Positions 1 through 35,907 of a stretch of DNA of 35,907 bases are shown in pieces. The translations under genes were made by a program, and so were the position numbers. How positions within the stretch are numbered: the stretch's first letter is position 1; every line of letters starts with the position of its first letter. The notes beneath the pieces are model-generated. The model made no database searches, was not told where the DNA came from, and worked only from the letters and a program-made list of their open reading frames with translations. Location of the stretch: positions 1 to 35,907 of IMG/VR virus record IMGVR_UViG_3300018080_000081. One strand, written 5' to 3'. The stretch is from a virus.

Positions 1-58
1 AACATCTACACGTGAAAGGCCAACATCTGTCGACGCTATAGTGATAGCAGAAGCACCA
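1..58. repeat. 58-bp terminal direct repeat, left copy
   Basis: Positions 1-58 are identical to 35850-35907, base for base. An open reading frame passes through the joined copy without a break, so this is most simply the overlap of a circular assembly. It need not be a physical end of the virion DNA. Confidence 0.95.
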
Positions 59-957
59 GGTGTAACAGTTATACCAGCACCAGCCGTTATTGTAGATGTA
101 CCTAATTGACCGTTAGCGTCATGCGCCACAACAGTAGCAACTGAGCCTACATTTGTACCAACTATACCAGCTATAAAACATGTGTCTTGTTGGCTATCAC
201 CAGTTCCCTGTGTTCCTATACGAATTGTATTATTGTCTGTAGCAACACCGGAGTTAGATATGCATATATTATCGCTATCGGTTGTCGTTAGTGAAGACCC
301 TGCACCACTACCAAGACACAAATTATACTGCGCAGATGTAACGCCTGGGCCACCTAGTGCCCCTGTTCCAATAGCTGTATTCCTTACACCTGCTGTAGCA
401 AAAACCATTGCATTGTCGCCAATAGCAACATTAAAGCTGCCACCAACATTGTCTCTAATGGTTTGCCTTCCGACACCCATATTTGCTGATCCAGTTGTTG
501 TATTTGTAAGGCTATCAACACCGATACAAGTGTTATTGTTTCCACTAGTTAGGGCGTCTAGCGCTCCTGGCCCAATTCCAACATTTTTATTGCCACTTAG
601 TGTGCCGTTTCCAGCACCTGCGCCAACAAATAGATTGCCTGTACCATATGCATGAAACTGTCTAACACTATTAATCTCTATAACACCTTCAGAGAGTGCC
701 GAATTAGTTGTAGGAAGATTTAAGTTACCAGCAGATATAGTTGCGTCGCCAGTTGTTACTGCTAGACCTGTTCCAGCTGTTACTGATCCTGTAAAAATAG
801 GTGATGTCAGACTTAAATCCGAATCACACATGGTTAATGTACGAGTATTACCTGTAGTAATACTACTCATGTCAAAACTTAATACCTTAGTGGAATCTGT
901 ATCATCTTTTATATCTAAATTTGTAGCTACATCATTTATAGAATTAAATATAGGCAT
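1..957 (-). CDS. Tail-fibre protein, N-terminal part (continues across the window ends)
   Basis: This is the first 319 codons of a 422-codon gene. It reads off position 1 and continues in frame at 35849 down to 35538 once the 58-bp end repeat is merged. The start is the ATG at 957, behind AGGAG. The N-terminus carries the short module shared with the 496- and 249-aa appendage proteins (acidic DxxDSTK, then TTGNTRTLTMCDSDLSL). After it come about six glycine-rich repeats of the type NxAIGxxAL, like the left-handed rolls of trimeric YadA heads, and an NTIRIGTQGTG / CFIAGI motif usual at the end of such heads. I infer a trimeric tail fibre or adhesin. The receptor is unknown. Confidence 0.8.
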   Translation of the reverse strand, partial: MPIFNSINDVATNLDIKDDTDSTKVLSFDMSSITTGNTRTLTMCDSDLSLTSPIFTGSVTAGTGLAVTTGDATISAGNLNLPTTNSALSEGVIEINSVRQFHAYGTGNLFVGAGAGNGTLSGNKNVGIGPGALDALTSGNNNTCIGVDSLTNTTTGSANMGVGRQTIRDNVGGSFNVAIGDNAMVFATAGVRNTAIGTGALGGPGVTSAQYNLCLGSGAGSSLTTTDSDNICISNSGVATDNNTIRIGTQGTGDSQQDTCFIAGIVGTNVGSVATVVAHDANGQLGTSTITAGAGITVTPGASAITIASTDVGLSRVDV

Positions 958-965
958 TATTGCTC

Positions 966-2456
966 CTATTCATAATATAAGTTTCCTTTACTATTGAAAA
1001 CCGTCCAACCGTTGTTTGCAGTAGTACATACTAACTCAATAGAATCATAATCATCAGTAGATCTAATAAAACCCGCTAATCCAACAGTTGTTATTTCTAG
1101 CTCATTGATTCTAATATATTGACTAGCATTTTGAGACAGTTTCCATCCTCCTGCACCATTTCCTAGGATCTTTATAGTAGACCCAAATGCGGCTACAGCC
1201 GGCAATACAATATCTGTCTGTGCTGCGTTAGTTGATACATATCCATTGTTAATTTCTGCATTTTGTGTTGTACCTGCAATTTCATTCCAAGTTTCATGAC
1301 CTGTAGAGGCTATAGTTATAGATCCAGCACCATTAGTAACAGTTATATTTGCACCTTCAGTAATCGTGGCTAAAACAGGATCCGCACCAACTGAACCAAT
1401 TGGTATTTCACCGTTTCCAGCAACACCTAATTCAGTAACTGCACCTGCACCAGATCCAACTATAAGACTGTGATCAGTTATACTTGATGGTATTGCCGCA
1501 GTTGTTCCAAGCTCACCATTATTATTTATAATGACTGACTGTGTTCCACCAATTGGTGTAACGCCATATATGCCAGCTATAAATGTATTATTTTGCTGAC
1601 CAGAACCAACACCTTGAGCACCTATACGTATTTTATTATTATCACCAACTACACCAGTATTACCTATTATTATATTATCTGAGTCAGTTGCTGTAAGATT
1701 TGTTCCTGCATTGAAGCCTATGCCAATGTTTTCAGATCCTGTTGTAATATTATCAAGGGCATCCATACCTAAACATACATTTCCTGAACCATCTGTAATA
1801 TTTTCACCTGCAAGACTACCTATAGCTACATTAAAGTCTCCGTCATTAATATCAGTCAAACTATTATACCCAAGACTGGTATTATCTGTTCCAGTATTTA
1901 AAAGACTACCTGCTGTATCACCAAAAAATGTATTTCTTGTACCAAGGTTATGCATAAATAATTGACCACCTACAGTCCATACACCTTCTGTAAATGCAGC
2001 ATTTGTTACAGGCATACCAATATTGCCACCTGTTGTAACAGTACCTGGAAATGATGGCGTAATTAAACTTAGATCTTGATCACACATTGTTAAAGTACGC
2101 GTAGTACCTGTGGTAACTTGATCAACTTCTAATGCTATCTTTTTAGTATTATCACCATCATCATAAACTCTAAAAACATCATCTGAAAATTCTGGACCTA
2201 TGCCACCTCCTGTAGCTGCTATTGTTATAGATCCTGGTGCATTAGTAATAGTTATATTAGCACCCTCAGTAAGTGTAGTAATTACAGGATCTGCACCTAC
2301 TGAACCAATTGGCAATTCACCATTTCCAGCAACTCCAAGTGATATCAATGAATTATCAGCATCACCAATAACTAATGCATGTTCTGTTGCACCATTAAGA
2401 TCACTTATATCAATAGGCAATAATGAACTAGGACTCGACACTATAATTTGCGACAT
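966..2456 (-). CDS. Tail-fibre protein with YadA-like head repeats
   Basis: A 496-aa paralogue of the junction-spanning fibre. The ATG follows AGGGG. Visible parts in order are: an IPIDISDLNGATEHALVIGD-type segment; a GNGELPIGSVGADPV block (about residues 45-80); the shared DDGDNTKK...TTGTTRTLTMCDQDLSL module (about 95-130); YadA-like NxSLGYNSL / NVAIGSLAGENI / NIGIGFNAG repeats (about 175-265); NKIRIGAQGVG / TFIAGIYGVT; a second copy of the GNGEIPIGSVGADPV block (about 345-380); and a C-terminal domain with GGWKLSQNASQYIRI, also found in the 422-aa protein. It is probably a trimeric virion appendage. It lies 8 bp upstream of the 422-aa fibre and is probably co-transcribed with it. Confidence 0.8.
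   Translation of the reverse strand: MSQIIVSSPSSLLPIDISDLNGATEHALVIGDADNSLISLGVAGNGELPIGSVGADPVITTLTEGANITITNAPGSITIAATGGGIGPEFSDDVFRVYDDGDNTKKIALEVDQVTTGTTRTLTMCDQDLSLITPSFPGTVTTGGNIGMPVTNAAFTEGVWTVGGQLFMHNLGTRNTFFGDTAGSLLNTGTDNTSLGYNSLTDINDGDFNVAIGSLAGENITDGSGNVCLGMDALDNITTGSENIGIGFNAGTNLTATDSDNIIIGNTGVVGDNNKIRIGAQGVGSGQQNNTFIAGIYGVTPIGGTQSVIINNNGELGTTAAIPSSITDHSLIVGSGAGAVTELGVAGNGEIPIGSVGADPVLATITEGANITVTNGAGSITIASTGHETWNEIAGTTQNAEINNGYVSTNAAQTDIVLPAVAAFGSTIKILGNGAGGWKLSQNASQYIRINELEITTVGLAGFIRSTDDYDSIELVCTTANNGWTVFNSKGNLYYE
1372..2340. repeat. Internal duplication inside the 496-aa fibre gene
   Basis: Two similar segments, about 1372-1430 and 2284-2340, encode GVAGNGE(I/L)PIGSVGADPV followed by TEGANIT(V/I)TN and SITIA(S/A)TG. 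Both the protein and much of the DNA are conserved. The copies flank the YadA-like head, so the head looks like a cassette set between two copies of one linker domain. Confidence 0.7.
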
Positions 2457-3143: not shown

Positions 3144-5900
3144 TCAAGCCTTCAATATCCAGAATGCAATTGTTACATCAGAATTCAATGCAGCTGGACC
3201 ATCATTCATTAAATACACTGTAAATGATCCTGCGGCAGGTCTTACACGTGTTACATTCATTCTTGCGTCATTACCAGCAGCCGTTAAAGCTGTTGCAAGT
3301 ATGATTGAATTTGCAGTACATATACTATTTGTTATAGTAAATTCAGTTTGAGCGCCAATTCCAGTAACTTGTCCTGTAAATATTCCATATCCAACATTAG
3401 CGTTGATAGTTAAGGCAACACCTGCAACCGTTGCTGTGGCTGCCTCTAAATCAACTAAACCACCTGCATTAAGTGAAATGCCACCTGTTCCAGATTGTAT
3501 TGTTGTTGAACTTGTTGTATTTGTTGAACCTGCAGTTAAATCACGTACCGCAGCTCCTGTACAAATATTAACAGCTTGAGCATTTGCCCCAGTGCCAATA
3601 TTTGTTGCAGCACCTGTTGAATCTATAGTAATAGCTCCAGCTGTTGTTGCTCCAAAAGTTCCATCTGAAGCAAATACTGTTCCACCTGTACCAGAATCAA
3701 GCTCAAGCGTACTTGTTCCACCTGTAGCACCAATACTTATAGTTCTATTACCTGCAGTACCAATTGACATATCTTGGTTAACTGCATCATTACCTATATT
3801 AATAACACCTGCACTAGAATTAAAAGATAAAATGCCTGCTGCATCAACATCAATAATGCCTGTAGATGTAATTGAAGTACCAACCGTACCTGATTGTAGA
3901 ACAGTTGCGCTAGTTGCATTAGTTGAACCCAATGTTAGATCTCTAACCGCTGCTCCCGTACAAACATTTACTGCAAACGCATCTGCATCATTACCAATAT
4001 TTAATATACCTGCTGTAGAATTAATAGAAATTGCACCTGCTGCATCAACATCAATAACACCTGTAGATGTAATCGAAGTACCAACTGTACCAGACTGTAA
4101 AATAGTTGAACTAGTTGTATTAGTTGAACCTAATGTTAGATCTCTAACCGCTGCACCTGTACCAACATTTACTGCAAACGCATCTGCATCATCACCAATA
4201 TTTAATGTGCCTGCTGTAGAATTAAGCGATATATTTCCAGTAGCATCAACATCAACTGTACCTGTAGATGTAATAGAAGTATTTCCTGTACCAGATCTCA
4301 ACACTGTTGCAGATGCACCTGTCAAACTACCAACTGTTGTAGTATGGACAGCAGCATCAGCACCAACATTAACTGCACCTGTACCTGAAATTAATGATAT
4401 ATCAGAATCGGTTGCTGTAAGAACAATATCGCCAGAACCTGCATTAATATCTATACCAGTTGTTCCCGTAATATTGCCAATTACTATATCTCTTTGTGCT
4501 GCACCTGTACCAATATTAATACCAAATGAATCTGCATCATTACCTATTCCGATAATACCTGCAGAGGAATTTAATTCTAATACACCATCTGAATCCAGTA
4601 ATAATGTATCATCAGAATCAATTGTAATATCACCAACACCCGTTGATGCCAATTGTATTCCACCTGTTCCTGAATTTAAAACTAATTGTGATGCAGCTGT
4701 AACATTACCCATAGTAATAACTCTAGCTGCTGCACCTGTACCAATATTAATATTTTGTGCTACTGCATCATTACCTATACCAATAACACCAGCTGAAGAA
4801 TTTAACTCAAGCACACCCGTAGCATCTAGTGTTATCTCATCTGTAGATGTACCAATAAGGCCACCTGTTCCAGATTGTATTGTTGTTGTACTTGTTGTTG
4901 TGGTTGAACCAATTGTTGTAGGATGCGCAACAGCAGTAGTACCAAACGTAGCTCCAGTAGTACCACAATCTACTACTACCGACGTATTACCCGTAGCATT
5001 ACCAATAGTGACAACTTTTTGAGCAGCATCAGCGCCTAAATTTATAGCACCTGTGCCAGTTTCAACCGTAAATGGACCATTAGCACCTACAAAACTTGCG
5101 CCTCCTGTACCAAAATCACAATCAATACCTCCACCAGCAACATTTGATGCATTAAGTATTAATGCATTAGCGGCCGCTCTATTTGAATTAATATTAACAG
5201 AACCAACATCTGAAGTAATTTGTACAGAATCATTCGAGGTGCCTTGGTCAGATCTGATGCGGATAGTTTCATTGACCCCTCCATTTGCATGCAAGTAAAT
5301 TGCATCAACTGCATTAGAATCAGATGTAATAGTACAATCACCACCAAGCATATTAAGATCTACTGTAGCAGTTACAGCGCCAGCAGCATTAAGGTAACCT
5401 GCAAGATCAACATCGTCATCCAAATCAAACTGTACAACATTAGTTGCACCTGGAGCACTACTTGTTAAATTTGTACCTCCAGCGAACTGCGTTACTCCAG
5501 CTATTGGTGCGGCATTACCTGCATCCGTTTGGAACTGAGCAGCTGCACCTGGAGGTATGACAGATAACGTAATTGTTCCAGCACCTTCAGCAATTCCAAT
5601 AGACCCATCTGAAGCAAGATTTGCCCATACTGGCGTCAAACCTGTTCGAGCTATGTACAATTGTCCATCTGTTCCATCTGGTGTAGCATCTGCAATAGCT
5701 GACCAAGTAGGAACTAAAGGACTACCTGATAAAGCTGTCAATACATAATAAATACCTGTGGACTTATCAAGCCACGGTCTACCAAGATCTGTTATATCTT
5801 TAGCCGTAGGCGCTCTATCATAGATTAGACACCCTTTTGTTTTTTCAACTAATGGTTGTGAAAAACCATACGAGGTTTCAGGATATTCTTTAATGGCCAT
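3144..5900 (-). CDS. Long repetitive tail-fibre protein
   Basis: A 918-aa protein, ATG behind AGGAG. The first ~110 residues look like an attachment region (GRPWLDKSTGIYYVL, DGQLYIARTGLTPVWANLASDGSI). Residues about 270-840 are a long run of degenerate repeats. Each has a core like LNIGNDADAFAVNVGTGAA, then RDLTLGSTNTTSSTxLQSGT and ITSTGxIDVDA, which suggests a triple beta-helix or shaft. The C-terminus (TGQVTGIGAQTEFTITNSIC to VTIAFWILKA) is free of repeats and looks like a knob domain. It is probably the main tail fibre. It follows the internal-protein genes and a lipoprotein gene in the late operon. Confidence 0.8.
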   Translation of the reverse strand: MAIKEYPETSYGFSQPLVEKTKGCLIYDRAPTAKDITDLGRPWLDKSTGIYYVLTALSGSPLVPTWSAIADATPDGTDGQLYIARTGLTPVWANLASDGSIGIAEGAGTITLSVIPPGAAAQFQTDAGNAAPIAGVTQFAGGTNLTSSAPGATNVVQFDLDDDVDLAGYLNAAGAVTATVDLNMLGGDCTITSDSNAVDAIYLHANGGVNETIRIRSDQGTSNDSVQITSDVGSVNINSNRAAANALILNASNVAGGGIDCDFGTGGASFVGANGPFTVETGTGAINLGADAAQKVVTIGNATGNTSVVVDCGTTGATFGTTAVAHPTTIGSTTTTSTTTIQSGTGGLIGTSTDEITLDATGVLELNSSAGVIGIGNDAVAQNINIGTGAAARVITMGNVTAASQLVLNSGTGGIQLASTGVGDITIDSDDTLLLDSDGVLELNSSAGIIGIGNDADSFGINIGTGAAQRDIVIGNITGTTGIDINAGSGDIVLTATDSDISLISGTGAVNVGADAAVHTTTVGSLTGASATVLRSGTGNTSITSTGTVDVDATGNISLNSTAGTLNIGDDADAFAVNVGTGAAVRDLTLGSTNTTSSTILQSGTVGTSITSTGVIDVDAAGAISINSTAGILNIGNDADAFAVNVCTGAAVRDLTLGSTNATSATVLQSGTVGTSITSTGIIDVDAAGILSFNSSAGVINIGNDAVNQDMSIGTAGNRTISIGATGGTSTLELDSGTGGTVFASDGTFGATTAGAITIDSTGAATNIGTGANAQAVNICTGAAVRDLTAGSTNTTSSTTIQSGTGGISLNAGGLVDLEAATATVAGVALTINANVGYGIFTGQVTGIGAQTEFTITNSICTANSIILATALTAAGNDARMNVTRVRPAAGSFTVYLMNDGPAALNSDVTIAFWILKA
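3830..4240. repeat. 201-bp tandem repeats in the 918-aa fibre gene
   Basis: Two adjacent units are nearly identical at DNA level with a 201-bp (67-codon) period. For example AATGTTAGATCTCTAACCGC recurs at about 3931 and 4132. Weaker copies continue on both sides through about 3,500-4,900. The period is a whole number of codons, so gain or loss of a unit would keep the frame. Confidence 0.8.
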
Positions 5901-6154: not shown

Positions 6155-9100
6155 TTATCTATTCTTACTTACTCTACTACTTACTTTTGTTATCAAAGCT
6201 TTAATAGAGGAATCTTTATAACCATTATCAATTAACGTCTTAATAACATTTGATAATAGTTTACTATCTTTACGTTTTAAAGCTCTTGCAACATAATTTT
6301 CTGCTTTTCGTAGGCTCATACCTTGTGATATTGGAATTGCCCCTAAGCCTGAACCTATATAGACACCAAAACCCTTAGATGTTAATGATGATACTGAAAA
6401 CGGCAAAACACCTTGCATTAATGACTTAATACGTGAAACAACACGCTCTGGTGTATATGGTTTAGTTGCGTCCCAAGGTTTAAATTCACCCTGATCGTAT
6501 TTACCTCTAACTGGATAATTTGTATCATCAGATGGTGTACTACCTATAAGTTGTTGATTTAATATCCTTAAAACAGGATTAGTTTTACCAAATAATGTTT
6601 GTACAGGATTAGTTATATAACCAAATATTTCAAGTGCTTGTTTTCCAAGATGTCCATATGCTCTTTTATTTCTTGTATCACGTCCAGGATTAAATATAGA
6701 AGATCCTACTTTAATATTTACATCTGGTAATGAAAACATATACCATTTACTAGGGTCACCATTCCAAAAATTCTTAGATGCTTTTTCACGAGACCATCTA
6801 ACACCACGTATAGAATTGTTTTTCTTGTCTGTTTGTTCCCAACCTCCAAAAAAATACTTTAAAGCACCCTGCATTAATGATGTTTTAATTATATAATTAG
6901 TCCAATATTTCCTACCTAATCTACCTTTAGTTCTAGATGCAAAAGCACTACCAGCTTGTTTTAAAGCTGATATAGTCCAATCAGGATACGCTATAACTCT
7001 ACTAAGTTTCTTCATAGTATTTTTATCATTTAACCACTTAGATGTTTCCCATTGTTGTCCACCATATATATTATTTACAAGACTTGCTATATCTCTTCCA
7101 ATAGCTTTACGTTGTTCTGGTGTTGCTGGTTTGCCGGCTTTAATTAAATTAGTAAGTTCTTTATTTAATAACTCATTATACGTTACAGCTTTAAGGCGTG
7201 GATGATATACTTCAAACATATAATTAAGTACTTTTTTTGTTTTACCAATAACAGAATTTGTAATTTTTCCACCTTTAGATGCTATTTGATCTAATCCTCT
7301 ATTTATTAAATTTGAACCTTTATTATAATCAATTGGTTTTTCAAACTTAACACCATTACGTACAGCATCTACCATGAATTGCTTACTATTTAATAATTGA
7401 TCACCTTGCTTTGCAATCCACTTAAAATTTAAACCTTTTGAAAAACCTAATGCACCTACCGCAGATTCTGTAAGTGGAACCATATGAAATGGTGATAATG
7501 TCACATTAACTGTTTTCAATATATTAGATGCATTATCAAAATTACGCCAAAATTTACTATCTTGCTTAAACCCTTCTTTGCTAAATACACCCTGAAATGC
7601 ATCTGCTATTTTAGGATCAATTAACACAGGTCCAGCAGCTGTTTTCCATTCACCAGTTGGTGTTTCATAGCGTTTTAATATTGATTCTTCAAATGGCACA
7701 AACCCTAAATTTTTAACTTTATTATACAACTCTGCATTATTACTTCTAACAATTAATGGTGTATCTCCAGGAGTTTTTTCAATAGCATTAATCATTTTTG
7801 ATTTAGCTAACGTTTTATTAGTTATCTCATCATATACAGCAACATTTTCAACGATACTCTTATACTTAGGTTTTAATCTTGCTTTAATTGCTTCTTCATG
7901 AGTTAAGAATTGTTTTTCTTTTGAAAATGGTGTTAATTCAGGAAAACCTTTTGTCTGTACAGCTTTCTTAATATCACCCTCATATAATCCTGGTAAATAT
8001 GTATCTATAAGTGTGTCTCGTGGATTAATATCTTTCAACCTAGGATCACTATTAATTTGTTTTAAACGTTGCTTAAAATAGGTATCTACATCGTTAACTA
8101 GTTTCTTAACTTGAGGTGATGTACGTTTTTCAAGAGACTCATATGTATCACCAGTTATATTTGGATTACCCGTTTTTTGTCGTAAATATGAAGCTTCTTC
8201 GAGCTGTGTTGGTGTAAACTTAGGAACACGTTTTCCATTTTCTTTTTTATAAATTTTATCTCTAAACTCTAATTGTGTTTTAAATATCTGTGCATCACGT
8301 TCACCAACATGCTCCTTTAGTAAGTCAAATGCTTCTTTATTTTGAATACTCTGCTTGATTTCTTGAGTATAACCTTGAATTTTTTGAATAGGTTTACGTA
8401 TGACTGAAGGTAATTTTTCAACAATTCTAGATGGTGCTTTTTTAATGGGTTCAGGTAGGTATTTTTTAATCGGCACTCCAAACTTATGTGCTATCATACC
8501 ACCAACCATAGCTAATGCATTATTTTTTAACTGTTCAGTAGTTGGCATTTCACCCTCAAGTAATGATTGTGCTGTTGTTATACTTCCATACTCCAATGCT
8601 CTATCTGTAGCACTTCTACCTATTTTAGTATTAAGTATTTTCTTATATACAGGTATTTTATTAAGCAATGGTAAAAGTTTACTTGCTTTTGAAGCCACTA
8701 AACCAACTGTACCTGCCTTACCTGTTTCTTTTAATACATGTCCAGCTCTACTTATAAAACCTCCTAGAGTTGCATTTCCACCTTGTTTTGCATAATCATT
8801 ATATTCTCTTAATGATTCCTTAATTATTGTTGGAAATGCAATACTAAATATTACTGCCCCTGTTTGTGCTCCAGCTACTGTTCCTGCTCCTGGTATAATA
8901 GAACCTATTAAACCACCAACTAAAGCACCCAATGCAGCTCCTGACATATTAGCAGGAGCATCAGACAATGCTTCACCACCAAGTTCTACAATACCTTCTA
9001 AAAGACTATCTGCAACTTCATTATCTTCTTCTGAACCAATAAGTGTCTTTGCAACTGCACCAGCTGAACCTTTACCAATACCTCGTGAAGCACTTCTAGC

Positions 9101-9400
9101 TAATTTATTAATTATAAATGAATCTTTTTTATATTTTTTGCTAGTTTGTGATGGGCCATTTAGCTCTTCAGGTGTAAAAATAAATGGATCTTCAATATCT
9201 TCTTGAAGCATGTCAAAATCAATATCACTATTTTCTTGTTGTCCAAGTTCTAATTCTTCAGGTGTAAATATAAATGGATCTTCAATATCTTCTTGTTCAA
9301 CACTTAAATCTAGTAATGAATTATCTTCTTGTTGTCCAAGTTCTAATTCTTCAGGTGTAAAAATAAACGGATCTTCAATAGGTTGCAACTCATTTGCCAT
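6155..9400 (-). CDS. Largest internal virion / DNA-ejection protein candidate
   Basis: A 1081-aa protein. The N-terminus holds three copies of IEDPFIFTPEEL (residues about 8-25, 39-56 and 69-80; the first two continue as ELGQQE) about 30 residues apart. A basic linker follows, then a Gly/Ala-rich hydrophobic stretch (about 150-195, SGAALGALVGGLIGSIIPG) that could insert in membrane. The middle and C-terminal parts are basic and helical, with a YGGQQWETSKWL...YPDWTISALKQAG region like that of large internal proteins of other podoviruses. By size and position it resembles T7 gp16 in role, but I see no lysozyme or transglycosylase motif. It is the last of four consecutive internal-protein candidates. 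Confidence 0.65.
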   Translation of the reverse strand: MANELQPIEDPFIFTPEELELGQQEDNSLLDLSVEQEDIEDPFIFTPEELELGQQENSDIDFDMLQEDIEDPFIFTPEELNGPSQTSKKYKKDSFIINKLARSASRGIGKGSAGAVAKTLIGSEEDNEVADSLLEGIVELGGEALSDAPANMSGAALGALVGGLIGSIIPGAGTVAGAQTGAVIFSIAFPTIIKESLREYNDYAKQGGNATLGGFISRAGHVLKETGKAGTVGLVASKASKLLPLLNKIPVYKKILNTKIGRSATDRALEYGSITTAQSLLEGEMPTTEQLKNNALAMVGGMIAHKFGVPIKKYLPEPIKKAPSRIVEKLPSVIRKPIQKIQGYTQEIKQSIQNKEAFDLLKEHVGERDAQIFKTQLEFRDKIYKKENGKRVPKFTPTQLEEASYLRQKTGNPNITGDTYESLEKRTSPQVKKLVNDVDTYFKQRLKQINSDPRLKDINPRDTLIDTYLPGLYEGDIKKAVQTKGFPELTPFSKEKQFLTHEEAIKARLKPKYKSIVENVAVYDEITNKTLAKSKMINAIEKTPGDTPLIVRSNNAELYNKVKNLGFVPFEESILKRYETPTGEWKTAAGPVLIDPKIADAFQGVFSKEGFKQDSKFWRNFDNASNILKTVNVTLSPFHMVPLTESAVGALGFSKGLNFKWIAKQGDQLLNSKQFMVDAVRNGVKFEKPIDYNKGSNLINRGLDQIASKGGKITNSVIGKTKKVLNYMFEVYHPRLKAVTYNELLNKELTNLIKAGKPATPEQRKAIGRDIASLVNNIYGGQQWETSKWLNDKNTMKKLSRVIAYPDWTISALKQAGSAFASRTKGRLGRKYWTNYIIKTSLMQGALKYFFGGWEQTDKKNNSIRGVRWSREKASKNFWNGDPSKWYMFSLPDVNIKVGSSIFNPGRDTRNKRAYGHLGKQALEIFGYITNPVQTLFGKTNPVLRILNQQLIGSTPSDDTNYPVRGKYDQGEFKPWDATKPYTPERVVSRIKSLMQGVLPFSVSSLTSKGFGVYIGSGLGAIPISQGMSLRKAENYVARALKRKDSKLLSNVIKTLIDNGYKDSSIKALITKVSSRVSKNR
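9160..9385. repeat. Triplicated coding repeat for the IEDPFIFTPEEL motif
   Basis: The DNA around TCTTCAGGTGTAAA and GGATCTTCAAT (plus-strand view) occurs three times, near 9,165, 9,255 and 9,350. The encoded peptide is better conserved than the acidic, Gln-rich spacers between copies, which points to selection on the motif. Confidence 0.8.
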
Positions 9401-9410
9401 ATTATATATC

Positions 9411-10445
9411 CTATCTATAATTTCTATTTAAAGCTTTCAACATTTCATTTATAGAACCTGAGTCGCGTCTATCATCCTGTAAACCTGTCTTAATAGCATA
9501 TGGATTCACTATAGGCGCTCTTTTTTGTGATAATGATTGATATACTTGTTGCAAATTTTGTTGTTGCTGAAGTTGTTTTTGTCGTTGTTGTTGCTGTAGA
9601 AGTTCTTGTTGTTTTAAATTTTCTTTTTCTAATGATTTTTTTCGCTTTAGCATTTGTTTTATAGCTTCTTGAATTTCTTTTCTGCTTTTTTTTCTAACCT
9701 CATATCCAGACATTTTTGCTTGTGCTTCAGTTGCTCTTGATAATCTATATAATTGTTCAGCATATGGTTGCTTATAAAAACTCGCACTTGTTTTAACTTG
9801 ATTTAATGCCTTATCTTTAAACCATTTACTTATTTCTTGATCAAGTGGTTGCCCTGTAATTATTTTCCATTCAGTTGTTCCATCTAAATTTGCTTTATCA
9901 ATCTCACTAAGTTTACCCTCTTGATATTGCTTTTTAAGTGTACGCACTCTTAATGTATCTGGATGTATTGCTTTTTTATTTAACTTTTTAAGTTCTTTAT
10001 CTTCTTTTTTCTTATTATATAATAATAATTTTTGATTTTCTGCTTGTTTGTTTTTTACATAATTTATTATATCTTTTGAAGACCAACCTTCAAACATTGC
10101 TGGATCTGAACCGACTTCTTCGGCATATTTAATAGCTGATTCTCTTTTAGTTTTTTCCTCTTCTGCTTTTTGATCTTGCCTAGATGTTAATAACTGTTTA
10201 TTTCTATTGAATTCTAGAAATTTTCGTTGTTGTGTAGGTGCCATTTGTTGAAACTCTGGATTATCAACTATACTTGGATCTTGCGCTCTTGCTAATGCTG
10301 CTATAGATCTTTTTTCACGCTCCTGTTTACTGCGTTCTAATCTAGCACCTAAATAACCACCTAAAATATTAGCTAAACTATTACCTGTACTAGCTAACAA
10401 TCGTTTTTCTGGACTATATTCATAATCATCATTGTAATAAGGCAT
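9411..10445 (-). CDS. Coiled-coil, Gln-rich internal virion protein candidate
   Basis: A 344-aa protein. The ATG overlaps the TAA of the upstream gene by one base (TAATG) behind GGAGG. The N-terminus is acidic and tyrosine-rich (YYNDDYEYSPEKR), then a short Gly/Ala/Leu segment (NSLANILGGYLGARL). The rest is highly charged and helical, with a Lys/Glu/Gln coiled coil at about residues 255-305 that contains runs of Gln. No catalytic motif is visible. Its place between two large internal-protein candidates suggests part of the same injected set. The family is not recognised. Confidence 0.6.
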   Translation of the reverse strand: MPYYNDDYEYSPEKRLLASTGNSLANILGGYLGARLERSKQEREKRSIAALARAQDPSIVDNPEFQQMAPTQQRKFLEFNRNKQLLTSRQDQKAEEEKTKRESAIKYAEEVGSDPAMFEGWSSKDIINYVKNKQAENQKLLLYNKKKEDKELKKLNKKAIHPDTLRVRTLKKQYQEGKLSEIDKANLDGTTEWKIITGQPLDQEISKWFKDKALNQVKTSASFYKQPYAEQLYRLSRATEAQAKMSGYEVRKKSRKEIQEAIKQMLKRKKSLEKENLKQQELLQQQQRQKQLQQQQNLQQVYQSLSQKRAPIVNPYAIKTGLQDDRRDSGSINEMLKALNRNYR

Positions 10446-33219: not shown

Positions 33220-33879
33220 TTAACAAACTAAATAACCTGTAAATGCCGCACTTATTGTTGGAAATAAATCAACTGTCTTAGATCCTCCTGATGCTTTAAC
33301 TACAACATATGCAATGTCACCAGCATCCATAAAACAACAACAAGAAATACTCGTTCTATTTCTAGCATTAGATCCATAATAATTAGAAACCCTACTTCTT
33401 CCTGGCCTAACATAGCTATAAAATGTTTGATTAGATGTAACAATACTTAATAAATTATCAGTAATATCAGCAGCCGTACTTTGATTTATACATGCATCAA
33501 ATTTATATACACCATCTTTAGGCGCAACAAACACGCTAGTTGTACTATTATAATCAGAATTATTGTCAAATCTAGTAGTATCATAAATTATATGATATGC
33601 ACTACCGTCACCTGTAACATTTAACAATGTAGTACTAATTTCTGCGTTAAATGCTGGTTGTAATGGATTAGAGACAAGGCCGTTTTCGTCAACTACAATT
33701 GTATCTGTTGTACCTAAACTTGCTCCTGAGCTAATCTTAAATTTATCACTATCATCATCATCTACACCTATTATAAATTTACCAACTTCATTAATGCTGT
33801 AACTTATAAAACTATCAGATGTAGGTGAATCAATTGTTAAAGATCCAGACTTATTTAATATAGTATTAATCTTGGACAT
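33220..33879 (-). CDS. C1q-like tail appendage protein
   Basis: A 219-aa protein, ATG behind GGGGAG. The N-terminal half holds a short attachment-type module (YSINEVGKFIIGVDDDDSDKFKIS) found also in the next gene. The C-terminal ~145 residues form a C1q/TNF-like jelly roll: AFNAEISTTLLNVTG, YHIIYDTTRFDNNSDYNSTTSVFVAPKDGVYKFDA, and a final AFTGYLVC. Such domains trimerise and bind sugars or proteins. The family of paralogues (33220, 33887, 34779) suggests a set of receptor-binding tips. A Cys-Cys-Cys run in SISCCCFM is unusual. Confidence 0.7.
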   Translation of the reverse strand: MSKINTILNKSGSLTIDSPTSDSFISYSINEVGKFIIGVDDDDSDKFKISSGASLGTTDTIVVDENGLVSNPLQPAFNAEISTTLLNVTGDGSAYHIIYDTTRFDNNSDYNSTTSVFVAPKDGVYKFDACINQSTAADITDNLLSIVTSNQTFYSYVRPGRSRVSNYYGSNARNRTSISCCCFMDAGDIAYVVVKASGGSKTVDLFPTISAAFTGYLVC

Positions 33880-33886
33880 ATCTCCC

Positions 33887-34558
33887 CTAACTTACTAAGT
33901 AACATGAAAAATATGTATGTGCGTCTGTAGAATGTCCATAAACATCATCTGAATCACTGCTTCCGCTATTAGACGAGACTGTCAAATATACGGTATCAGA
34001 AGCATCCATATCAATTAATACGGAACAAGACATACTTAATGCATCATTTGAGCCATAATAATTTGATAAACGCCTCCTTGTAGGACCATTATCAAAATAA
34101 TACGTCTTATTTGATGATTTAACTATAAAATCATACTGAACGCCTCCTGTAGAGCTATTTACTACTAAACTAGCAGATCCACATACCAAGAAGCGACCTG
34201 AAATTGGCGCAGTAAAAATGCCCGTTGTATGATCATAATCTCCATTATTATCAAAAGTTTCAGTATCGCAAATCACAGTATACGATGATATGCCAGTAAC
34301 GTTTGTTGCAGTTGCACTTAAATAAGCGGCTGCGGCACTCTGTAAAGGCTTAGTCACCTCGCCAGTTGATTCAATAACCAATGCACCAGACGCAGCACCT
34401 TCAGGTAATATTTTAAACTTGTCACTATCATCGTCATCAACAAAAACTGAGAACTTGTCAGTACCACCTATAGAGAATTGCAATAAACTATCACCAGACG
34501 CACCAGGATCAATTGTAAGCTCACTACTTTTGTTATTAATTGAATTTATCGTTAACAC
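33887..34558 (-). CDS. C1q-like tail appendage protein, paralogue
   Basis: A 223-aa protein that starts with GTG behind AGGAG. It has the same plan as the 219-aa neighbour: FSIGGTDKFSVFVDDDDSDKFKI, then a C1q-like jelly roll (AAYLSATATNVTG, TVICDTETFDNNGDYDHTTGIFTAPISGRFLVC, YFSCYLVS), and the shared RRRLSNYYGSNDALSMSCSVL segment. The N-terminal half is nearer the neighbour than the tips are, which suggests diversifying tips on a common base. Confidence 0.7.
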   Translation of the reverse strand: MLTINSINNKSSELTIDPGASGDSLLQFSIGGTDKFSVFVDDDDSDKFKILPEGAASGALVIESTGEVTKPLQSAAAAYLSATATNVTGISSYTVICDTETFDNNGDYDHTTGIFTAPISGRFLVCGSASLVVNSSTGGVQYDFIVKSSNKTYYFDNGPTRRRLSNYYGSNDALSMSCSVLIDMDASDTVYLTVSSNSGSSDSDDVYGHSTDAHTYFSCYLVS

Positions 34559-34560
34559 TA

Positions 34561-34770
34561 TTACTCCTCAATTTTAGAAGTTTCTTCTTCTTTTTTAAGG
34601 GCTTCTTTTTCCTCTGGTGTAAAGTCTATATCTATACCAGTTTGATCTTTTATAACCTTTTCAGCTATTTGCTCAACAACATTGTCTTTTTTCTTGATGA
34701 TTATAGTACTTACAGCACCAATTACTATTGATATTCCAACTATAATTGCACCTACTAATCCAATACTCAT
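34561..34770 (-). CDS. Small single-helix membrane protein
   Basis: A 69-aa protein, ATG behind AGGAG. One N-terminal membrane helix (IGLVGAIIVGISIVIGAVSTIII) is followed by KKKDNVVEQIAEKVIKDQTGIDIDFTPEEKEALKKEEE. I know the EQIAEKVIK..TGIDID.TP pattern from small unnamed proteins of several phage groups. It sits between appendage genes. It could be a minor virion membrane protein or a holin-like protein. Confidence 0.6.
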   Translation of the reverse strand: MSIGLVGAIIVGISIVIGAVSTIIIKKKDNVVEQIAEKVIKDQTGIDIDFTPEEKEALKKEEETSKIEE

Positions 34771-34778
34771 AGAAACTC

Positions 34779-35528
34779 CTATCCAATTTGATTACCTGAA
34801 AACCATGTTAAATACGGCTCACCGTCACCAAGAACATCAATTACTTTGGTTCCATTGGCAACTCTTACATATACTGCCGCTGTATCTGATGAATCCATAT
34901 CTACCGTTATTGTTGCAGAATAAGTATATGCTCCAGAACTATTCATTACGGCATATGGATTCATATCGTGATATCTATAATCACCATTACTTGTTGATAG
35001 ATATGGTGACATTGATGTATGTGAAGAAGTCATGTCATCTATCTTAACAGATATATCAAAGCGGAACTTACCGGTATTTGGCGCGGTGAAAGTTCCGCTT
35101 GTAGAAAAATCACTTCCTACATCATATATTTCTGTAAGGGCCGTTGTGTTGCCCAACTTAAATGCAGTATTGTCACCAGTTACATCTGAAACAGTTGATG
35201 GCAAATAAGCTAAAAAACCTACTTCCATAGTTGGTGGAGCACCTGTATTTGTCACCGTTATAGTGCTACCACTTGCAGACGTACTTACTCCCGATCCTTC
35301 AATTGAAAATGACCCACTTGAGGGTGTACAGGTACCAGAATCAGTAACAATACTAGTAGGAACAGCATCAAAATTAATATTACGATCGTCTACCGTCCAA
35401 ATTCTAGTTGTACCCGTTGTTACATACTCGACATTAAACGCAACCTCTTTTGTATTATCACCAGTATCAAAGATTGTTAAAGCTCGATCCTTATTATTAT
35501 TAGCGTTTTGGGTATTATTTCCAGCCAT
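34779..35528 (-). CDS. Tail appendage protein with shared N-module and C1q-like tip
   Basis: A 249-aa protein, ATG behind AGGAG. The N-terminus carries the module shared with the two fibre proteins (IFDTGDNTKEVAFNVEYVTTGTTRIWTVDDRNI). A GSGVSTSASGSTITVTNTG linker follows, then a C1q-like jelly roll (VGFLAYLPSTVSDVTGDNTAFKLG, SDFSTSGTFTAPNTGKFRFDISVKI) that ends YLTWFSGNQIG. It thus combines the fibre attachment module with the tip type of the neighbouring small appendages. It lies 9 bp after the 422-aa fibre gene. Confidence 0.7.
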   Translation of the reverse strand: MAGNNTQNANNNKDRALTIFDTGDNTKEVAFNVEYVTTGTTRIWTVDDRNINFDAVPTSIVTDSGTCTPSSGSFSIEGSGVSTSASGSTITVTNTGAPPTMEVGFLAYLPSTVSDVTGDNTAFKLGNTTALTEIYDVGSDFSTSGTFTAPNTGKFRFDISVKIDDMTSSHTSMSPYLSTSNGDYRYHDMNPYAVMNSSGAYTYSATITVDMDSSDTAAVYVRVANGTKVIDVLGDGEPYLTWFSGNQIG

Positions 35529-35537
35529 TAACTACTC

Positions 35538-35907
35538 CTAAACAACAGTTATATTGCCAACCGATGCCGTTACGACAAAATCAGTATTAGCTACAGTACA
35601 TTTCAACCTAACGCAATCATATCTAACCGTAGACGCAAGAGAACCGCCTACGCCAGTAGTTGTGTCAGATGAAAGAAAATGTATCGTCTGACCAGCATTT
35701 TGAGCTATTGACCAACCATTAGCTGAGTTTCCTACTACTTCTATAACCTCACCAACAGCCGCCGTTGATGGTAGTGTATACGCACAAACTCCAGCTCCAT
35801 AGTTAGTTGTATATTCTGTATCAACTGCCATAGCTTGTGTAGCTGTTGTAACATCTACACGTGAAAGGCCAACATCTGTCGACGCTATAGTGATAGCAGA
35901 AGCACCA
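35538..35907 (-). CDS. Tail-fibre protein, C-terminal part (continues from position 957)
   Basis: This is the end of the 422-aa fibre whose start is at 957. In the joined circle the frame enters here as GASAITIASTDVGLSRVDV and runs on through AMAVDTEYTTNYGAGVCAYTLP to SVGNITVV. The internal Met at 35831 is not a real start, as the frame is open upstream and conserved with the 496-aa paralogue. The C-terminal domain (EVVGNSANGWSIAQNAGQTIHFLS, TVRYDCVRLKCTVANTDFVV) matches that of the 496-aa protein and is a common end domain of phage fibres. Confidence 0.85.
   Translation of the reverse strand, partial: GASAITIASTDVGLSRVDVTTATQAMAVDTEYTTNYGAGVCAYTLPSTAAVGEVIEVVGNSANGWSIAQNAGQTIHFLSSDTTTGVGGSLASTVRYDCVRLKCTVANTDFVVTASVGNITVV
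35850..35907. repeat. 58-bp terminal direct repeat, right copy
   Basis: Exact copy of positions 1-58. Merging the two copies closes the genome into a 35,849-bp circle. Confidence 0.95.

Follow-up and report, generated by a model that had tools for sequence, protein, structure and literature searches.

Phage receptor-binding proteins have been described as exchanging their tips behind a conserved N-terminus, with shuffling of domains (PMC10684548), and Ackermannviridae phages are reported to carry up to four receptor-binding proteins each, with N-terminal elements in common and paralogous genes that recombine (PMC11414711). In marine phages, a YadA-like end of the fibre and C1q-domain genes adjacent to the tail-fibre gene were presented as variable host-recognition parts (PMC3909814). 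The head spike fibre of RcGTA is anchored via residues 2–10 (PMC10218006), and the RcGTA tail fibre belongs to the DUF2793 family (PMC10883770); these statements are those of the sections cited. A search of the open-access literature for N-terminal peptides anchoring several receptor-binding proteins returned none. Judged mainly from listings, the open-access literature held no recognised description of the TTGTTR module or of the leader treated below, and no match for the sequence letters of the module was found in it.

The window analysed here is the whole 35,907-nucleotide stretch of the IMG/VR record IMGVR_UViG_3300018080_000081, a tailed-phage record with a P22-like portal gene (Pfam E 3e-75; PHROG portal). 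It carries four related probable appendage proteins (422, 249, 223 and 219 aa) along with one more, of 496 aa, that belongs to a different class. A reading of the four as putative trimeric virion fibres or spikes, docked by a short leader, is slightly favoured.

Gene run and probable appendage proteins

The first 58 bases of the window (1–58, unstranded) were identical to its last 58 (35850–35907), a direct terminal repeat by which the record closes as a circle and which marks it as circular (or terminally redundant). The 249-aa ORF (34779..35528, minus strand, as are all genes below) was located in a tightly packed run of ORFs of like direction, together with those of 1081, 918, 116, 496, 422, 69, 223, 219 and 99 aa, and the intergenic gaps in the order 496-422-249-69-223-219 were each shorter than 10 bases. 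The 422-aa ORF runs across the end joint (957..1, then 35849..35538 via the 58-base repeat), so this protein presupposes a circular record. Its first part (residues 1–319; 1..957) contains the leader (913–957), the TTGTTR module (805–927) and YadA-like head repeats (310–636); its last part, joined via the end repeat (residues 320–422; 35538..35849), is the C-terminal 'NAGQ' tip, our own label for the C-terminal domain common to the 496-, 422- and 214/203-aa proteins.

The 249-aa protein consists of a diverged copy of the leader (residues 1–19; 35472..35528), the TTGTTR module (residues 14–54; 35367..35489), a neck (residues 55–100; 35229..35366) and a C1q-fold tip (residues 101–249; 34782..35228). 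Over residues 53–100, the neck was 73–81% identical to the 214-aa protein of relative L006 and the 245-aa protein of relative L007. The 223-aa protein (33887..34558) and the 219-aa protein (33220..33879) are each composed of a leader (34511–34558 and 33832–33879, respectively), a DDDDSD base (34352–34516 and 33670–33837) and a C1q tip (33890–34348 and 33223–33666), and both contain the predicted motif DDDDSDKFKI. The 496-aa protein (966..2456), of the MSQI N-terminal class, begins with a small domain, followed by the TTGTTR module (residues 92–132; 2061..2183), a YadA-like head, the small domain again and a NAGQ tip. This small domain (GELPIGS...AGSITI, about 62 residues; residues 21–82 and 327–384) is likewise present in the relatives' MSQI-class proteins.

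Between the 249- and 223-aa genes lies the gene of a 69-aa predicted membrane protein (34561..34770), which adjoins the 249-aa gene, is conserved as a neighbour in relatives and marks the tip-swap locus described below; its sequence type was found beside the cassette in the window, L006, L007, L008 and L009. The protein has one apparent membrane span, a holin-like size and no NCBIfam match. The 918-aa protein (3144–5900) contains many degenerate repeats, and its counterparts measure 820 aa (L006), 963 aa (L007) and 922 aa (L009), so that the repeat number seems variable.

The evidence for a tail or virion role of these putative appendage proteins consists of family matches and operon context. 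Both the 496- and the 422-aa protein (the latter in its first part) matched PHROG 4636 (tail spike) and PHROG 6002 (virion structural protein). Their putative YadA-like heads were recognised at sequence level, by a repeat pattern (a regular expression) together with the PHROG tail-spike matches. An NCBIfam scan of nine window proteins at E 0.01 gave zero matches, and no isolated-phage relatives of the 249- and 223-aa proteins were found among 50,697 records (E 0.1 and 0.01). Instead of tail receptor-binding proteins, the small leader proteins, in part or as a whole, might be head fibres, decorations or non-virion proteins: a head-borne, N-terminally anchored spike fibre is known (PMC10218006), and the C1q-type proteins of marine phages are, in the section cited, only inferred to bind hosts (PMC3909814). 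With the PHROG matches of the 496- and 422-aa proteins and the placement of all these genes in one co-directional run that also encodes the 1081-aa protein and a long fibre of repeats speaking against it, this is considered quite improbable.

The tips were characterised on AlphaFold2 monomer models, which cover the 249- and 219-aa proteins. In these models, the 249 tip (pLDDT 92–98) has a C1q jelly-roll fold (Z 16.9 and rmsd 2.3 over 129 aligned residues of 4ous), as has the 219 tip (Z 17.6, 126 residues). Pfam PF00386 (C1q; cut-off 23.7 bits) was matched by the 223-aa protein with 32.1 bits and, narrowly, by the 219-aa protein with 24.0 bits. A C1q-like tip had been predicted for the 249-aa protein, and the modelled fold clearly bears this out, although Pfam gave no C1q match for it at E 0.1. 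Fold matches included C1q-fold chains of the cyanophage A4 portal-tail complex (9k09) and of the phi812 central spike (9eul); such tips therefore occur in phage tails. The match lists of both models were filled by the C1q tip and are uninformative on the module and the DDDDSD base.

The TTGTTR module

The original prediction had read a shared N-terminal module, DxGDNTK...TTGTTRxxTxxDxxL, in the 249-, 422- and 496-aa proteins as a possible common socket. That the stretch is homologous among the three was borne out: local alignment scores were 68 (249/422), 101 (249/496) and 145 (422/496), with shuffle maxima of 48, 50 and 54, respectively (0 of 2000 shuffles as high, for each pairing). An HMM derived from five module segments placed the module at residues 14–54 in 249, 11–51 in 422 and 92–132 in 496. 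The literal motif fits only the 496-aa protein, the 249-aa protein ending in DRNI and the 422-aa protein reading DTDSTK and TTGNTR. Nor is the module N-terminal throughout, as in the 496-aa protein it is preceded by a domain, of which there is a second copy further on, and starts at residue 92. In the monomer model of the 249-aa protein, it had a pLDDT of about 59–77 and zero strands.

Viral contigs were scanned with six module segments, which yielded 48 loci (419 pattern-matching stretches). Against a bacterial and archaeal genome collection, a lineage-specific module alignment found no relative (80 stretches), and a broader module alignment found 27 loci (142 stretches). After removal of identical proteins, 87 module-bearing ORFs were obtained (61 viral, 26 from genome contigs); the counts of modules, leaders and combinations given here come from loci of the pattern search, for which 80 of 354 confirmed relatives were kept, and do not represent a random sample. 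The first module copy began after residue 12 in 73 of the 82 proteins with a complete 5' end, leaving only 9/82 with a copy within residue 12, and two or more copies were present in 20/87 ORFs, some of them 53–64 residues apart.

Module segments were compared with PHROG at E 0.01, where 67/69 matched phrog_13925 (unknown function) and 15/69 matched phrog_692 (virion structural protein); the module segment of the window's 249-aa protein matched neither at this threshold. With Pfam, at most 2/69 segments hit any one family, all weakly, and no family was assigned; no solved structure related to the module was found by sequence profile at E 1. Searched alone against isolated phages, the module gave 25 records at E 1, none of them strong (best E 1e-3); they come from phages of Rhodobacter and Rhodococcus, and in the two records examined the matches lay in genes without assigned function. 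Pfam was run on 3 of the 26 genome-contig module proteins (L143, L148, L154): DUF2793 preceded the module in the two Rhodobacterales proteins L143 and L148, and L154 was without DUF2793. These two proteins (L143:4677–6632 and L148:4746–6566; Gemmobacter, Haematobacter) carry the module directly after DUF2793. Another contig, assigned by binning to Candidatus Saccharibacteria, has a gene for a 1417-aa protein that combines module and NAGQ tip (L155:4566–8819), the tip being 66% identical to that of the 778-aa protein of L006; it may be a phage contig or a case of mis-binning.

Because it is mostly internal, sometimes tandem and placed after DUF2793, the TTGTTR module is best taken for a linker or joint of general use in fibres rather than a strict N-terminal socket. 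That it is itself the docking base, the leader being incidental, would agree with its position directly behind the leader in 422, 249 and relatives of this phage lineage, and with the identity of the L006 214- and 778-aa proteins over leader and module. Set against this are the first copies beyond residue 12 in most complete proteins, the multiple copies in others, the start at residue 92 in the 496-aa protein, and the leader proteins without a module, namely 219 and 223 in the window and those of L008 and L010. A socket role was dropped as the main reading of the module on account of its mostly internal, sometimes tandem copies in other phages and bacterial genomes, and it is considered quite improbable. 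The module is a common, uncharacterised fibre element, and a single solved structure would serve to annotate many fibre proteins from the environment.

The N-terminal leader

Alignment of relatives of the 249-aa protein with relatives of the 219- and 223-aa proteins revealed a common start of about 15 residues, M(A/S)xxNxINNxSxxLTI, in the 249-, 422-, 219- and 223-aa proteins. A matrix was built from ten leaders of DDDDSD-C1q proteins and applied to 1816 distinct ORF starts, whereupon all seven distinct leader-module N-termini fell within the top 29, along with seven unrelated ORF starts. The reciprocal matrix was trained on six leader-module proteins, with 249 held out, and 4605 distinct starts were scored. 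It placed 45/50 DDDDSD-C1q proteins above all 4479 others (AUC 0.988), the held-out 249 N-terminus likewise outscored all 4479 others, and one of 68 internal-module proteins lay above the 99th percentile. A weak score with the leader profiles (9.0, 5.5) was obtained for L093:4463–4990, whose start reads MASILKVNTIQ...TIDS and which may resemble marine phage proteins; other phages may thus have a leader related to this one.

By their N-termini, the aligned window proteins are partitioned into {422, 249, 223, 219} and {496}, in place of the original {249, 422, 496} and {219, 223}: the 219- and 223-aa proteins, which had been given a base separate from that of 249 and 422, begin with the same leader as these. 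Behind the leader stand two different stems. No homology between the TTGTTR and DDDDSD stems was detected by profile comparison (hhalign probability 0.3), and a relationship between them was set aside on this ground. The first ten residues had a pLDDT of 48 in both the 249 and the 219 model, and the first twenty residues of 249 about 50; the DDDDSD base of the 219 model was beta-structured, with pLDDT mostly 82–91.

A common plug is plausible and appears better assigned to the leader than to the TTGTTR module. In the proposed mechanism, the disordered leader of about 15 residues would act as a plug that docks the proteins on a common virion site, the proteins would be virion fibres or spikes, trimeric and receptor-binding, and the TTGTTR module would serve as a trimeric shaft or joint element, not as the plug. 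The tips would bind host surface structures, and new tips would be acquired via recombination within or just after the conserved leader-module-neck region. Between 249 and 422, identity was 25% in the leader and 35% in the module; a common socket would therefore have to tolerate such divergence. A stricter version, in which this single peptide is a universal plug in a family of uncultivated phages and any stem and tip can be mounted on the same virion site, is possible, with a chance we put somewhat below even. If it holds, each genome would carry two to five appendages that can stand in for one another and in which stem and tip may differ completely.

The within-genome similarity of these proteins was assessed on 41 genes from 18 genomes, each with at least two of them, and enrichment was found for leaders (z 5.3), stems (z 3.3) and tips (z 4.3). 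Within-genome leader similarity does not serve as proof of a genome-specific socket, as stems and tips were enriched too and the leader was not singled out. This closeness of all three parts within genomes, together with the tandem arrangement of the genes, would also fit a leader without any docking, left over from gene duplication or acting as a signal in translation or assembly, in paralogues whose stems and tips were replaced. Against this, the leader persists where stem and tip have been fully replaced, and it keeps its very N-terminal position in 45/50 DDDDSD proteins and in 7/7 leader-module N-termini, which points to constraint; we regard the relic or signal explanation as unlikely. 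Docking by the leader, which is the preferred reading, would define a small docking element, by which receptor-binding proteins could be recognised from a short start peptide even with an unrelated stem or tip, perhaps in other environmental phages as well.

Exchange of tips and comparison with known systems

Relatives were searched for tip swaps behind the module, with L001–L005 left out as duplicates. C1q tips were found in the combinations leader-module-C1q, leader-module-YadA-C1q and leader-DDDDSD-C1q, and NAGQ tips in the combinations leader-module-NAGQ and leader-module-YadA-NAGQ. The gene before the membrane-protein gene encodes leader-module-C1q in the window and L007 and leader-module-NAGQ in L006 and L009, so that C1q and NAGQ tips alternate at this locus; the 249-aa protein and the 214-aa protein of L006 have like necks and tips of different kind. 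Within L006, the 214- and 778-aa proteins were identical over residues 1–52 and 85% identical over residues 53–78, after which identity fell to 45% and 28%. Both types of leader protein were present in the window, L006 and L009, L007 having two of the module type and zero of the DDDDSD type, and L008 and L010 the DDDDSD type only. Two ORFs of L067 show possible further combinations, the first (7863–8666, 267 aa) with a leader, a GELPIGS domain and a NAGQ tip, the second (8691–9644, 317 aa) with a leader, two DDDDSD bases and C1q.

Nearest neighbours of the tips were determined with L042, L053, L056, L062, L064, L073 and L076 left out because they show contigs or viruses already represented, as in the within-genome test; among DDDDSD tips, neighbours were listed for those of the window. 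The 422 tip was nearest to those of MSQI-class proteins (78%, 76%), the C1q tip of 249 to that of a DDDDSD protein (53%, compared with 48% for the L007 245-aa protein), and the tip of the 1085-aa protein of L007 to a DDDDSD-protein tip (69% identity). In a tree of NAGQ tips (30 of 45 kept, tips of unclear class being dropped), the 422 tip grouped with MSQI-class tips (100/97), three class changes were needed, and a single clade of leader-module tips was rejected (p-AU 4.6e-6), with long branches on 2/5 tested rows. In the C1q-tip tree (60 leader-type tips kept out of 140), the leader-module tips formed two groups, and a single clade was not rejected (p-AU 0.203). Gene order, nearest-neighbour tips and the tree test agree in favour of the predicted tip exchange by recombination, and the sequences show that across relatives leader, stem and tip come apart and are combined anew.

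Compared with RcGTA, the TTGTTR module follows DUF2793 in both scanned Rhodobacterales proteins, and a short N-terminal anchor peptide has a precedent there (PMC10218006, PMC10883770); the likeness of the spike peptide to the leader is one of proposed role, compared by description. Unlike the RcGTA tail fibre, the window proteins gave no Pfam match to DUF2793 (PF10983). With the marine phages, the window shares C1q and YadA-like parts, read as host-recognition parts in those phages, whereas the T7-like tail fibres of these phages carry an N-terminal PF03906, according to the section cited (PMC3909814), for which no Pfam match was obtained in the window. XD/TD (gp10-like) N-terminal domains were not among the families listed for the window proteins by Pfam (E 0.1) and NCBIfam, libraries that may lack the XD domains.

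The several proteins per phage, here two to five leader proteins per genome, resemble the branched tail-spike complex of the Ackermannviridae as described in PMC11414711, but most of the window proteins are short, and they give no indication of branching. As in the modular receptor-binding proteins of PMC10684548, a conserved N-terminal part is combined with unrelated tips that are exchanged between relatives; unlike in those proteins, as far as that description extends, the constant part here seems to comprise only about 15 residues, ahead of two stems without detectable homology. Tip exchange and the carriage of multiple receptor-binding proteins are already known, and the refinement added by this locus lies in what the appendages have in common, a very short leader instead of the module.
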